This document shows, in pieces, positions 2,156 to 8,914 of a stretch of DNA of 32,770 nt; within the stretch, counting starts at the first letter, position 1; every line of letters starts with the position of its first letter. The stretch comes from Actinomycetota bacterium (lineage in GTDB: Bacteria > Actinomycetota > Acidimicrobiia > Acidimicrobiales > AC-9). A model generated the notes under the pieces. The model made no database searches and was not told the origin of the DNA. It saw only the letters and a list, made by a program, of their open reading frames with translations. Position numbers and translations under genes: made by a program. The stretch lies in contig VAWP01000059.1 in assembly GCA_005888295.1 (NCBI GenBank), forward strand, positions 3,246 to 36,015, given 5' to 3'.

Positions 2156-2713
2156 TCACGGCCCGGGCGGCTGCGTTCCGGTCGCCACGGCAGCGGCGAG
2201 GACCTCGTCGGCGGCGGCCTCGGCCAGAGCCCGGATCTCGTCGTCGGTCCGGTCCTGGATCGGATGGGGGACGAACACCCGGGCGGGATCGACGCCCAGG
2301 GCGCGGGCCTGCGTCTCGGCAGCGGCGACGAACTCCGTCGAGGCGACGAACACCCCCGGGAGCCCCCGGGTCTCCAGCTCCGCGATGTCGTGCACACTGC
2401 ACGACGTGCAGCTGCCTCAGTCGGCGAGCGCCTCGATCACCAGATCGCACTTGGTGCTTATCTCGTGGCGCAGGTCGACGGGCGCCACCTTGGCGAAGGT
2501 GGGCTTGCGGTAGCGGAGGACCCGAAGGTCGGGGACCCGCGCCCTCAGCGTCGACTCCAACGCGTCGAGGAAGACGTCGCCCCGGGGCTTGGAGATGTCC
2601 AGCAGCCCGACCGTGAGGCCGTCCAGCGAGGACGGCCGGGCCACCCGGGCTCGCGTCGTCGGGGTGCGCTCGCTGGTCGGGTCGAGCAGGACAGTAGCGG
2701 AGTCGGGCGTCAT
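2156..2713 (-). CDS. UGSC-family selenoprotein (185 aa incl. Sec encoded by TGA at 2417-2419)
   Basis: ATG at 2713 (ATGA overlap with upstream gene); frame MTPDSATVLL...KPRGDVFLDALE...CDLVIEALAD-TGA-GSCTSCSVHDIAELETRGLPGVFVASTEFVAAAETQARALGVDPARVFVPHPIQDRTDDEIRALAEAAADEVLAAAVATGTQPPGP-TGA. ORF-track pieces 2417..2965 and 2156..2395 are in the same frame either side of one TGA. Confidence 0.88.
2387..2405 (-). promoter_or_regulatory. Candidate bacterial SECIS stem-loop
   Basis: mRNA GUCGUGCA-GUG-UGCACGAC: perfect 8-bp stem, 3-nt loop starting with G, loop begins at nucleotide +20 after the UGA. Confidence 0.7.
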
Positions 2714-4194
2714 GTCCCCACCTCCCGGGTCACTGGTTGGCTGCCGCCGGGTCCGTTGATCCAGCTTCCGATGATGGACGAGAACAGCCCCGCCCGGCCG
2801 CCGGCGTGGACGAACCACAGCCCGTCGGGGCGGAACTTCGGGATGGCGGCCTCCTCCAGACCCTGGGGCAGGCCCTCGTCGCACCCGCCGGCGCCGCGAA
2901 CGAGCTCGGCGCCGGGGACGGTGAGGAGCTCCAGCAGCTCGTCCCGGAGCCTGGCCTTTGTCCACGCCGCCTCGCCGAAGACCCGGGCATGCTCGGGGCT
3001 CACGACCAGCATGGCGTCGAGGCCGAGAGCCAGCTTGTGATGGCCGACCGTCCGCAGGCTCCCGGCGAACGACCGGGCGAGGGACTCGGGCGTCCGCGAC
3101 AGCTGATCGACGACGCCGCGTGGCCCCTCACCGGCGTACAGCGTCACCGTTGAGCTCTCCGGCGCCATGCCGCGCTCGACCGCCAACGACTCCCAGGGGG
3201 ATCCCTCCTCGTCCTCGGCGAAGCAGAACGTGTACTTGCCCGGGTTGCCGAGGGTCGCCCGGTCGACACCGCCGGGCACCCCGCCGCCGACGTTGCGCAC
3301 GATCAGCTGCAGCGCCCGGCCGATCGTGGCGTTGGCTCGGTTCCCCTGCCCCAGGACGTTGCCTGCGGAGTTCATGCCGATGGCCTGACGGACGGGACCG
3401 TTCACGATCACGACGGGGCCGGAGAAGTACGTCGTGGCAACGAGCCCGTGGCCGTTGAACTCGTCGGTGCACATGGCCTCGACCGCCGCCAGCACGAGCG
3501 GCAGGTACTCGGGCCGGCAGCCGGCCAGGACGGCGTTGATGGCGGCCTTCTCGACGGTGCACTCCACCAGATCGGGAGGGACGGTCGCCACCACCTCCTC
3601 CGGTGCCCGTGTCGTTCCCTCGAGCATGCGCAGCACCCTGGCCTCGGTGGGCGGGACCACGGGCAGCCCGTCGGTCCATCCGCGCTCGAAGGCGGCCTCG
3701 GCCTCGTCTTCGGACGAGCCGAGCGACACGCGGCGGGCCCGCAGCCGGCCGGACCCGAACCGGGTGGCGAGCTCGTCGGCCATGGCTGGGTCAGCTGTCC
3801 GCGACCCGCAACCGGGACGGAGCTCGGGGAGATCAGGACCGAGGCCCGCGACGCCGGTGAGCTCCTCCCACCGCGGCCGGTGCCAGCCCTCCGTCCGGGC
3901 GATCTCCACGCCGCCGTCGAACCGCAGGATGGTCGGCACCGTGAGGAGGTCGAGGGCCCACGACACCCGGAGCTCGGTGTCGTCGACGACATCGGGGAGC
4001 TCCCGAGGGAACCCGGGATCGTCCTGGGTGTAGACGGTCAGTGGGACGCCGGCGCGGCGCAGCTGCGCCAGCACCGGCGTGACGGACACACACGTCTCGC
4101 ACTCGTGCTTGACCACGGCGACGATGCCGTCGGGCACAGCCGGCACGCGAGGCCGGCCCGAGCGCACAGCGGGCGACGTCTGGGACCCCGTCAC
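2710..4194 (-). CDS. Thioredoxin-like N-terminal domain fused to a large uncharacterised domain; partner of the UGSC selenoprotein
   Basis: 494 aa; N-term VAVVKHECETCVSVTPVLAQLRRAGVPLTVYTQDD...VPTILRFDGGVEIARTEGW (Trx-like, CxxC); C-term GWTDGLPVVPPTEARVLRML...INAVLAGCRPEYLPLVLAAVEAM...NGPVRQAIGMNSAGNVLGQGNRANATIGRALQLIVRNVGG. Confidence 0.85.
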   Translation of the reverse strand: MTGSQTSPAVRSGRPRVPAVPDGIVAVVKHECETCVSVTPVLAQLRRAGVPLTVYTQDDPGFPRELPDVVDDTELRVSWALDLLTVPTILRFDGGVEIARTEGWHRPRWEELTGVAGLGPDLPELRPGCGSRTADPAMADELATRFGSGRLRARRVSLGSSEDEAEAAFERGWTDGLPVVPPTEARVLRMLEGTTRAPEEVVATVPPDLVECTVEKAAINAVLAGCRPEYLPLVLAAVEAMCTDEFNGHGLVATTYFSGPVVIVNGPVRQAIGMNSAGNVLGQGNRANATIGRALQLIVRNVGGGVPGGVDRATLGNPGKYTFCFAEDEEGSPWESLAVERGMAPESSTVTLYAGEGPRGVVDQLSRTPESLARSFAGSLRTVGHHKLALGLDAMLVVSPEHARVFGEAAWTKARLRDELLELLTVPGAELVRGAGGCDEGLPQGLEEAAIPKFRPDGLWFVHAGGRAGLFSSIIGSWINGPGGSQPVTREVGT

Positions 4195-5075
4195 GAGAAC
4201 AGGTTAGAGCCGGCGATGGCGCGCCACTCCTCGAGCGGGAGCCGCGCCCGGTCCTCGGTGAGGACCTGCATCGCCACGTGGTCGGCGCCGGCCTCGAGGT
4301 GCTGACGCAACCGGTCGGTCGCCTGCTCGAGCGGGCCCCAGGCGACGACCGCATCGACCAGGCGGTCGCTGCCGGCGTCGGCGAGGTCGTCCTCGCCGTA
4401 GCCGATGCGGGCGAGGCTGCGCCGGTAGTTCGGCAGCCGGAGGTAGGTGCCCAGATGAGCCCTGGCGATGCGGCGGGCCCGATCCGGGTCTGCCACGAGC
4501 ACCACGGCGACCTCCGGGCACAGCAGCGACCCGGGCCCGAGGATCTGGCGGGCCTGATGGGTGTGCTCGGGCGGCACCAGGTAGGGATGGGCGCCGTCAG
4601 CGCGCTCGGCGGCGAGAGCCAGCATCCGCGGTCCCAGCGCCGCCAGCACGCGCACCGTCGGCACCGCCTCGAGGGCCGGAGCGTCGTAGTGGGCCTGGTC
4701 CATGGCATCCAGGTAGGCGCGCATGGCCTGGAGCGGCCGCTCGTAGTGATGCCCCCTCGGCGAGACCAGCGGGTCGTGGCTGACCCCAACCCCGAGGAGG
4801 AACCGCCCGCCCCAACCCTCGCTGAGCGTCCGCTGGCCGGCCGCCATCGCCATCGGGTCGCGAACCCAGATGTTGGCGATACCGGTCGCGACGACCAGCC
4901 TGGTGCTCGCCGACAGGAGCAGGGCGGCGTTGGCGAACGCCTCGCGCCTGGCGGCCTCGCCCACCCAGAGCGTCCCGTACCCGAGCGCCTCGATCTCTGT
5001 GACCGCGTCGCGCACGGCGGCCGCCGGTTGCCTGTCCAGGGCCGAGGTCCATATCCCGATTCGTCCCAGCTCCAC
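4191..5075 (-). CDS. LLM-class F420-dependent oxidoreductase (MSMEG_4141-like)
   Basis: MELGRIGIWTSALDRQPAAAVRDAVTEIEALGYGTLWVGEA...VVATGIANIWVRDPMAMAAGQRTLSEGWGGRFLLGVGVSH; ATGA overlap with next gene. Confidence 0.88.
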   Translation of the reverse strand: MELGRIGIWTSALDRQPAAAVRDAVTEIEALGYGTLWVGEAARREAFANAALLLSASTRLVVATGIANIWVRDPMAMAAGQRTLSEGWGGRFLLGVGVSHDPLVSPRGHHYERPLQAMRAYLDAMDQAHYDAPALEAVPTVRVLAALGPRMLALAAERADGAHPYLVPPEHTHQARQILGPGSLLCPEVAVVLVADPDRARRIARAHLGTYLRLPNYRRSLARIGYGEDDLADAGSDRLVDAVVAWGPLEQATDRLRQHLEAGADHVAMQVLTEDRARLPLEEWRAIAGSNLFS

Positions 5076-6001: not shown

Positions 6002-7327
6002 ATGAGTGCCGACCGTACCAGGACACCCGTCCTGAGCCTCATCACGACGGCGCCCTATGGGACAATGCCAGGGGAGGTAATGGTGGCTGGACACATGACG
6101 GGCTCGGCGGATCTCTCCTCCAGCACCGAGCTCGATGCGATCGTGCTCGAGCACGCCTACGACGGGGTTCGCCTCCAGCTCGTTCTTCGCGGCCTATTGG
6201 TCGTGTTCGTCGTCCTGACGGTCGCCATCATCCCCCCCGAGCACCACTCGTTCGCGTCCTACATCGTTGTCTCCCTCTATGGCGTGTGGGCCGTCGGCGT
6301 CGCCGCGTGGAGCCGGCAGGGGGGCCCCAATCCGGTTCGGTTCGTCTGGTTGGCGCTGTTCGTGGACCTTCTGGTCCTGGGTGGCCTCACCGTGCTCGTC
6401 GGGGTGGCCGCGCCCCAGAGCTGGACGGACAACGTCCTCATCAACGGCTTCTTCGTCATCCCCCTCCTGGCGGCCACCCAGCTACGGCCGCGTATCTGCG
6501 CAGCCGTCGTCGTGCCGACCGTCGCCATCTACCTCGCGGTCAGCGTGGTCACCCAGTCGTCGAACGAAGAGCCCTGGTCGTCGATCCTCCTGCGCACGCT
6601 CGCCATTGCGGGCCTGGGAGCCGGCTGCATCGCGCTCACCCGCATCCAGCAATCTCGCGTGGCGACGATCGGTCGACTGGTGGGAGATCGGACCGGCCTG
6701 CTCACCGAGGTGATGACGACGGAGGATCGGGAACGTCGGCAGCTGGCCGAGAACCTCCACGACGGCGCGCTGCAGTACGTCCTGGCCGCTCGCCAGGACA
6801 TCGAAGACGTCCAGTCCGACCCACGTGCGATCGCCCGTCTCGACGAGGCCCTCACCGAGTCGTCCCGCTTGCTTCGGTCGACCGTCTCCGAGCTCCATCC
6901 GGCCGTGCTCGAGCGACTGGGTCTGGCCCACGCGCTCCGCGACCTGGCCCGGACCGCGGAGGCGCGCGGTGGGTTCGCCATCACCTTGGAGCTCGACGGC
7001 TGGGAGGAGGGGGCGCGCACCCCGGCAGACGGCCTCCTCTTCGCGACCGCACGGGAGCTGCTCAGCAACGTCGTCAAGCACGCCGGGGCCCACCGCGTCC
7101 AGATCAATCTCGCCCGCTCGGGCGAGCTCGCCCGTCTCGTGATCGCGGACGACGGACGTGGGATCCCGGACGGGGCTGTGGAGCAGAGCCTCGGCGACGG
7201 GCACATCGGTCTGGCCTCGCACAGGGTGCGGCTCGAAGCTGCTGGCGGTGGCCTCAGCATGTCCAGCGCACGTCCCACCGGGACGATCGTCCAGGTCGAC
7301 GTGCCCTGCCCACCGTCGTCCAACTGA
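6002..7327 (+). CDS. Membrane sensor histidine kinase, NarL/DesK-type (HisKA_3 + HATPase_c)
   Basis: Several hydrophobic segments; H-box RRQLAENLHDGALQYVLAARQDIE; ATPase ELLSNVVKHAGAHRVQINL, IADDGRGI. Start may be internal (e.g. MTGSADLSSS). Confidence 0.9.
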   Translation: MSADRTRTPVLSLITTAPYGTMPGEVMVAGHMTGSADLSSSTELDAIVLEHAYDGVRLQLVLRGLLVVFVVLTVAIIPPEHHSFASYIVVSLYGVWAVGVAAWSRQGGPNPVRFVWLALFVDLLVLGGLTVLVGVAAPQSWTDNVLINGFFVIPLLAATQLRPRICAAVVVPTVAIYLAVSVVTQSSNEEPWSSILLRTLAIAGLGAGCIALTRIQQSRVATIGRLVGDRTGLLTEVMTTEDRERRQLAENLHDGALQYVLAARQDIEDVQSDPRAIARLDEALTESSRLLRSTVSELHPAVLERLGLAHALRDLARTAEARGGFAITLELDGWEEGARTPADGLLFATARELLSNVVKHAGAHRVQINLARSGELARLVIADDGRGIPDGAVEQSLGDGHIGLASHRVRLEAAGGGLSMSSARPTGTIVQVDVPCPPSSN

Positions 7328-7357: not shown

Positions 7358-8914
7358 CTACTGCAGATAGCCGCGCCGCATGGCCTCGACGACCGCCGCG
7401 GTCCGGTCGGAGACGCCGAGCTTGTCGTACAGACGTTGGGCATGGTTTCTGACCAGGCTCACCGCCAGACCGAGCTCGGCGGCAACCTGGGGAACAGAGC
7501 GGCCCCGGGCGAACGCCCGCAGCACCTCCAGCTCCTCATCAGTCGGTGCTGACGGCTGGCCCTGGGCCCGGTGCCGGATCTCGCCGGCCAGCCCGCCCGC
7601 AAGCTCGGGAGGAAGCACGGTCTGGCCGTCCGCCGCCCTGAGCACGGCGTCGACGATCTCCTTGCGCCGGGAGTCCTTGGAGAGGTAGCCGGCGGCCCCC
7701 TCCTCCAGCGCTCGGAACACGACGGCGCTGTCGCCCACCGCCGAGAGGAGCAGCACCCTGGTGGGGAGGTCTTCGTCGACGACCGCGTGGACGAGGTCGA
7801 GCCCGTCCATCTCGGGCATCTGGTAATCGACCACGGCGACGGTGGGACGCTCTCGCCTGATCACCTCCAGCGCGTCGGCGCCGTTCTCCGCCTCACCGAC
7901 GACCTCCACCCGCTCACTCTCGGTCAGGCCTCGGATCACGCCGTCGCGGAAGAACGGGTGGTCGTCGACCACGACGGCCCTGACGAGGTCTTCCGCCGGT
8001 GGCGGGGCGGGCTGACCGGCCCGTTCGGCCTCGTCGCCGCCTGCGGGGGTCGGTCTCGGGAGGACGACCGTCGACAGCGAGGCGTCCGGCATGGCGCCCG
8101 CGGCGCTCGGAGTGGTGAGGACACGCAGCATCTCGTCAGCGGAGCCGAACCGCTGCCCGGGGTCCTTCTCCAGCGCCTTGAGCACGAGCGCGTCCAACGG
8201 CTCCGGCACATCGGGTCTCTCGGCGCGCAACGAGCGAGGCGTGGCCTGGAGATGCTGCGCGATCACACCGACCGGGACCTCGGCCTCGAACGGCGGGTGG
8301 CCGGCGAGGCACTCGTAGAGCACGCAACCGAGCGAGTACAGGTCAGTTTCCGCCGTGGACGATCGGGCGTCGAGCTGCTCGGGCGACGCGTAGGCGGGGG
8401 TCCCCATGAACTGTCCCATCGTCGTCAGGCTCCTGAGGTCGCTGGCTGCCCGGGCGATGCCGAAGTCGACCAGCTTCGCCGTGTCGTCCCCGGCGATGAG
8501 GATGTTGGCCGGCTTGATGTCCCGGTGCACGATGCCCTTGCCGTGAGCATGGCTGAGGCCGGCGAGCAGCTGCGCGGCGAGCTCCTGGGTCCTCTCCAGT
8601 CCCATGTAGGGCGCCGTTGCCTCGAGCCTCGCCTGGAGCGACTCACCTTCGACCAGCTCCATGACGATGTAGTACGTGTCGCCGTCGCTTCCCGCGTCGT
8701 AGACGGTGACGATGTTCGGGTGCTTGAGCGACGCCACGTGGATCGCTTCGCGCTGGAACCTCTCGCGGAAGGACGTGTCGGTGGCCAGCTGCTCGCTCAG
8801 CACCTTGATGGCGACGTGTCGGTCCAGCCGACGATCGTTGGCCCGCCACACGCTGGCCATGGCCCCGGAGCCGAGGTGGTCGAGAAGCTCGTATCGCTGG
8901 TCCAACACCCTCAT
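7358..8914 (-). CDS. Ser/Thr protein kinase fused to REC-LuxR (NarL-type) response regulator
   Basis: Kinase motifs GSGAMASVWRA, VAIKVL, IVHRDIKPANIL, DFGIA, GTPAYASPEQ; REC VVDDHPFFRDGV, VVDYQMPEMDG, GYLSKDSRR; C-term HTH TDEELEVLRAFARGRSVPQVAAELGLAVSLVRNHAQRLYDKLGVSDR. Confidence 0.93.
   Translation of the reverse strand: MRVLDQRYELLDHLGSGAMASVWRANDRRLDRHVAIKVLSEQLATDTSFRERFQREAIHVASLKHPNIVTVYDAGSDGDTYYIVMELVEGESLQARLEATAPYMGLERTQELAAQLLAGLSHAHGKGIVHRDIKPANILIAGDDTAKLVDFGIARAASDLRSLTTMGQFMGTPAYASPEQLDARSSTAETDLYSLGCVLYECLAGHPPFEAEVPVGVIAQHLQATPRSLRAERPDVPEPLDALVLKALEKDPGQRFGSADEMLRVLTTPSAAGAMPDASLSTVVLPRPTPAGGDEAERAGQPAPPPAEDLVRAVVVDDHPFFRDGVIRGLTESERVEVVGEAENGADALEVIRRERPTVAVVDYQMPEMDGLDLVHAVVDEDLPTRVLLLSAVGDSAVVFRALEEGAAGYLSKDSRRKEIVDAVLRAADGQTVLPPELAGGLAGEIRHRAQGQPSAPTDEELEVLRAFARGRSVPQVAAELGLAVSLVRNHAQRLYDKLGVSDRTAAVVEAMRRGYLQ

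Follow-up and report, generated by a model that had tools for sequence, protein, structure and literature searches.

On the minus strand of the window, by which we mean the whole analysed stretch of 32,770 nucleotides, a UGSC-family selenoprotein gene lies directly behind a partner gene with a thioredoxin-like domain, and a gene for an F420-dependent oxidoreductase precedes both (Table 1). The ATG at 2713-2711 opens a frame that contains a single internal TGA (codon 99, 2417-2419) and is closed by the TGA at 2158-2156. Translation of 2159-2713 with TGA read as selenocysteine (Sec) yields 185 residues, ...CDLVIEALAD-U-GSCTSCSVHDIAELE..., with the motif UGSCTSC, i.e. UxxCxxC. This frame and a 185-residue product carrying a U..C..C cluster had been proposed in an initial annotation, whose coordinates and sequence were found to be exact, and its expectation that an automatic caller would report a truncated protein of 98 residues agrees with the 98-residue product given by the standard code. 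The start codon of the UGSC gene sits inside the stop of the upstream partner gene (ATGA overlap, 2713-2710).

Table 1. Positions of the UGSC gene, its regulatory elements and the adjoining genes in the window
Feature	Position	Strand	Description and basis
UGSC-family selenoprotein gene	2159..2713	minus	185 aa, one Sec; stop TGA 2156-2158; TGA=U translation, family models
Bacterial SECIS hairpin	2387..2405	minus	8-bp stem GUCGUGCA/UGCACGAC, loop GUG; pairing, covariation, Cys control
In-frame TGA, Sec99 of UxxCxxC	2417..2419	minus	TGA conservation in homologues; TGC/TGT in three divergent Cys homologues
Probable Shine-Dalgarno of UGSC gene, GGAGGTG	2719..2725	minus	sequence
Partner gene, 494 aa	2710..4194	minus	N-terminal thioredoxin domain (CETC) and ~345-aa unnamed domain; stop overlaps UGSC start codon
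Partner's unnamed UGSC-associated domain, residues 150-494	2713..3747	minus	genome co-occurrence with UGSC
Partner's thioredoxin-like domain, residues approx. 20-115	3850..4137	minus	matches to PDB thioredoxins by profile; TIGR01068
F420-dependent LLM oxidoreductase	4191..5075	minus	TIGR03620, 360 bits; overlaps partner gene by 4 nt

The protein had initially been assigned to the UGSC family from its U-G-S-C motif. Using curated models, the read-through product scored above the cut-offs of both PF24696 (155.9 bits, cut-off 25; 1.5e-45; residues 9-174) and NF041046, 'UGSC family (seleno)protein' (161.3 bits, cut-off 125; 1.5e-47), with both matches spanning the two sides of the TGA. A family match of this strength would hardly arise by chance. 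The product and its homologues carry the U-G-S-C motif with either Sec or Cys as its first residue, and U99, G100, C102 and D109 are invariant in an alignment of 41 family sequences. Comparison with several relatives gave a dN/dS of about 0.1-0.35 for the part of the gene behind the TGA, which indicates purifying selection. As judged from these family models and conservation patterns, the locus at 2159-2713 is a true UGSC-family selenoprotein. It shares its whole length, the UGSC motif and the encoding of Sec by UGA with the family described in 2008 from GOS data (NF041046, PF24696; PMC2398784); nothing essential is different, and it adds a further member from Actinomycetota. UGSC proteins had already been reported in Geodermatophilaceae (Actinobacteria), in genomes with a CUA-anticodon tRNA-Sec (PMC5330540).

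Decoding of UGA99 as selenocysteine

The initial annotation had made its reading depend on Sec machinery in the same genome, and all four components are encoded in the assembly (3.72 Mb, 198 contigs). tRNA-Sec was detected with 67.9 bits (cut-off 47) and an ARAGORN anticodon of tca, SelA (395.6 bits) and SelB (253.6 bits) are adjacent on the same contig, and SelD scored 331.7 bits. Across 118 genomes of the order, SelA was found in 47 of the 49 genomes with a TGA-bearing UGSC gene versus 21 of the 69 without one (Fisher p 5.6e-14), and the two carriers without a SelA match have incomplete genomes (84% and 78%).

Homologues were expected to carry U or C at the TGA site, which is what we observed. 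TGA is present in 98 of 98 homologues aligned over the site, from several phyla of the named genome collection. This count is not a search artefact, since the named UGSC loci had been retrieved with peptide patterns that did not extend across the Sec codon. Cultured isolates, namely several Halopseudomonas, Pseudonocardia acaciae and others, are among the carriers and the TGA is therefore not an artefact of metagenome assembly. The same codon is also present in two further genomes of this genus and in a second paralogue of the genome itself, which together with the isolates rules out the sequencing error that had been named as a possible refutation. Three divergent homologues are natural Cys forms with TGT or TGC at the Sec site; one of their genomes (G053) gave no SelA match while the other two (G019 and G012) contain SelA. 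The second paralogue (L050:5098-5586; contig C111:8094-8609) reads UGSCTSW and has kept both the TGA and the hairpin described below.

A predicted SECIS hairpin starts 11 nt past the TGA, with a distance of 19 nt from TGA to loop. The published bacterial SECIS (bSECIS) model consists of a 3-9 nt loop with G in its first two positions and a 4-16 bp stem, at a spacing of 16-37 nt and a minimum free energy of at most -7.5 kcal/mol (PMC13188914). With its 3-nt loop GUG, 8 bp, 19 nt spacing and -15.4 kcal/mol for a 40-nt stretch, the UGSC hairpin falls within all of these ranges. An Rfam scan of the window matched no catalogued RNA and the hairpin was therefore tested by covariation and against the Cys homologues. 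Among 41 distinct sequences, 93% of the stem cells pair, versus 10-53% (maximum 52.7%) when the partner strand is slid, and 21 cells have changed on both sides versus 5.7 in shuffles. The clearest compensatory change, from C-G to G-C, occurs in the UGSCTSW paralogues including the genome's own second copy. Of the 8 pairs, at least 7 are kept in 95 of 99 TGA forms but just 3-5 in the three Cys homologues. Folding energy is not exceptional when compared with shuffles (z -0.66), and it is covariation and the Cys control that carry the case for a SECIS; because related sequences inflate the covariation counts, most weight falls on the Cys control and the slid-strand control.

If the TGA were a true stop, the locus would represent a pseudogene, a frame-split gene or a sequencing error, and the truncated product of the standard code is what this explanation has in its favor. 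It is opposed by the presence of the codon in all 98 homologues over several phyla, isolates included, by purifying selection on the sequence behind it, and by the SECIS hairpin together with a full set of Sec genes, and we consider it vanishingly improbable. On the sequence evidence, UGA99 is read as Sec by way of the downstream bSECIS hairpin and the genome's own SelA, SelB, SelD and tRNA-Sec. Standard gene calling turns such a gene into a truncated hypothetical protein, making this a clear case of Sec misannotation.

Partner protein and genomic neighbourhood

In nearly all loci on a long enough contig, UGSC is adjoined by a homologue of the partner gene. Profiles of the partner family match PDB thioredoxins (best E 5.2e-5), and TIGR01068 was matched in 25 of 38 members. 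The likeness to thioredoxin is that of the partner's N-terminal domain, with its CxxC and thioredoxin profile matches; the partner differs from thioredoxin by the additional unnamed domain. For this domain of about 345 residues no relative was found in Pfam, NCBIfam or the PDB, and a Foldseek search with the partner recovered the thioredoxin domain and otherwise only meaningless low-scoring matches. The unnamed domain nevertheless tracks UGSC closely: 50 genomes contain both, three only one and 65 neither (n=118, p 1e-29), with equal copy numbers in 41 of the 50. A natural fusion (L138) combines a Cys-form UGSC and the unnamed domain in a single chain, and more distant UGSC paralogues are accompanied by the unnamed domain without a matching thioredoxin domain alongside. 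PMC2398784 describes a domain termed 'Unknown_1' fused to UGSC, and the unnamed domain of the partner may be the same one. Taken at the level of sequence, these data show UGSC to belong to a unit of two genes, the second of which encodes a thioredoxin domain and the unnamed domain. We estimate a probability of about 93% that the locus encodes a UGSC protein whose UGA is decoded as Sec and which has a near-obligate partner.

Downstream of the second paralogue of the genome studied here lies its own copy of the unnamed domain (L050:5621-6634), again without a thioredoxin-domain match alongside. Another genome of the same order (G012) contains ten UGSC matches, one of which is the Cys-form fusion described above; this number may reflect a diversification of substrates.

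The F420 oxidoreductase gene is probably co-transcribed with the partner gene. Of the two other genomes from this genus, only L139 has it beside the cassette, whereas it was not found in L140, and for want of such conservation it was dropped as a clue to the pathway. Across 80 loci the genes neighbouring UGSC were variable and revealed no common pathway or conserved metabolic neighbourhood, the only recurrent neighbours being selA/selB in Halopseudomonas and a thiolase in other Gammaproteobacteria. In Halopseudomonas/Pseudomonas (L078, L077, L096, L120) the partner-UGSC pair is directly followed by selA and selB, an arrangement that looks like a self-contained and possibly transferable selenium module. 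Elsewhere on the minus strand of the window, a 518-residue frame at 7358-8914 combines a Ser/Thr protein kinase, a response-regulator receiver and a LuxR-type helix-turn-helix, and is adjoined by a histidine-kinase-like gene at 6002-7327.

Relationship to GrdB and PrdB and possible chemistry

GrdB is selenoprotein B of glycine/sarcosine/betaine reductase, and PrdB belongs to D-proline reductase. We compared the UGSC family with a profile of 38 GrdB and PrdB-like proteins, each read through its own TGA. Using hhalign, the two were aligned with 95% probability (E 3.6e-8) and Sec on Sec. The probability was 93% after masking of Sec and 86% after masking of all Cys, whereas reversed and 100 column-permuted decoys gave about 1%, 18 other protein families at most 6.8% and a Rossmann-type SDR control 0.55%. 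Of 41 UGSC proteins, 37 matched TIGR01917, the NCBIfam model of GrdB, at a score below its cut-off (best E 8.5e-7), and in the protein studied here the match falls at the Sec region; in the reverse direction, a GrdB fragment matched the UGSC model weakly (E 0.0085). The likeness to GrdB (TIGR01917/TIGR01918, PF07355) and PrdB (TIGR04483) covers the Sec region of UGSC at residues of about 82-176, and in both cases UxxCxxC, the published GrdB motif (PMC13188914), is followed by a helix ending in LExxGIP. These comparisons show the Sec half of UGSC, by its sequence profile, to be remotely homologous to the Sec-containing part of GrdB/PrdB.

By the same models UGSC is not a member of GrdB. It is less than half as long, does not reach the model cut-offs (13.8 bits with TIGR01918, cut-off 65.45) and has no counterpart of the GrdB N-terminal region, PF07355, which was matched neither in 41 UGSC members nor anywhere in the genome. 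A GrdE/PrdA-type pyruvoyl partner (PF09338) was likewise not found in the genome, and the partner protein of UGSC is a different one: the possibility that its unnamed domain corresponds to GrdE/PrdA was rejected with a profile comparison of 0.5% against GrdE. UGSC is not filed as GrdB because the cut-offs are missed and both the N-terminal region and GrdE are absent, with no GrdE detectable in the partner either. The Pfam GrdB model PF07355 matches proteins only as far as the Sec, and this explains why the link to UGSC is not seen in Pfam and why searches with this model miss the active-site half of GrdB/PrdB-like proteins. A sequence search of the PDB found no GrdB/PrdB relative, and we found no statement of the kinship in the accessible literature. 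Sec-containing GrdB and short PrdB-like proteins are themselves present in many Actinomycetota genomes (L143-L146, L148-L167, L171-L184).

An AlphaFold2 (AF2) model of UGSC (pLDDT 90.9) shows an alternation of helices with five strands, in which Sec99 lies where a strand leads into the beginning of a helix. For GrdB and related proteins, selenolate attack on a polarised carbon-heteroatom bond has been proposed (PMC10838667). In an analogous mechanism for UGSC, the Sec99 selenolate would sit at the helix start, guarded by Cys102 and Cys105 of UxxCxxC, and would attack such a bond as the Sec of GrdB does, with the substrate held by the unnamed domain of the partner. The resulting Se-S or Se-substrate adduct would then be reduced by the CxxC thioredoxin domain of the partner. 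By analogy, UGSC may thus supply the selenol in a reductase made of two proteins, the partner being responsible for substrate binding and, by means of its thioredoxin domain, for the re-reduction of Sec, a proposal to which we give an even chance. That UGSC is a pared-down relative of GrdB/PrdB which has acquired a new kind of partner, composed of a thioredoxin and an unnamed domain, is a tentative reading that we place slightly short of even.

Two other functions have to be weighed against the two-protein reductase. UGSC could be a generic thioredoxin-like thiol oxidoreductase which reduces disulfides or peroxides through UxxC, as in Trx and Grx, with the partner as electron donor and the likeness to GrdB a matter of shared alpha/beta architecture alone. 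The UxxC motif, the Trx domain of the partner and the term 'likely Trx-like' used for UGSC in the 2008 paper (PMC2398784) are all consistent with this. However, none of the 50 best PDB matches that Foldseek gave for the UGSC model, with its alternating strands and helices, has a Trx fold, though all of these were weak alpha/beta matches (TM about 0.35-0.5), and the GrdB link survives masking of all Cys and far exceeds the Rossmann-type control, so that we regard a generic thiol oxidoreductase as rather unlikely. The strict pairing of UGSC with the unnamed domain and their natural fusion would fit a role of UGSC without catalysis, as an electron carrier or redox sensor by which the unnamed domain is controlled and no substrate is attacked, and the variable genomic neighbourhood is what might be seen for such a housekeeping or regulatory unit. 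As the position and context of Sec match those of the catalytic GrdB/PrdB, we judge this role to be quite improbable.

In conclusion, the SECIS hairpin, the near-obligate upstream partner and the active-site kinship to GrdB/PrdB go beyond what the initial annotation had described. The UGSC family has long been known, Actinobacteria included, and is among the commonest selenoprotein families in the GOS aquatic data while having remained functionally uncharacterised, and the kinship to GrdB is the most useful new point. Together with a near-obligate partner that contributes a candidate domain for the substrate in addition to a thioredoxin, it provides a testable mechanism for the family. If UGSC is indeed a pared-down GrdB/PrdB relative, a Sec-dependent reductive bond-cleaving enzyme would be present in many bacteria beyond the classical amino-acid-fermenting anaerobes.
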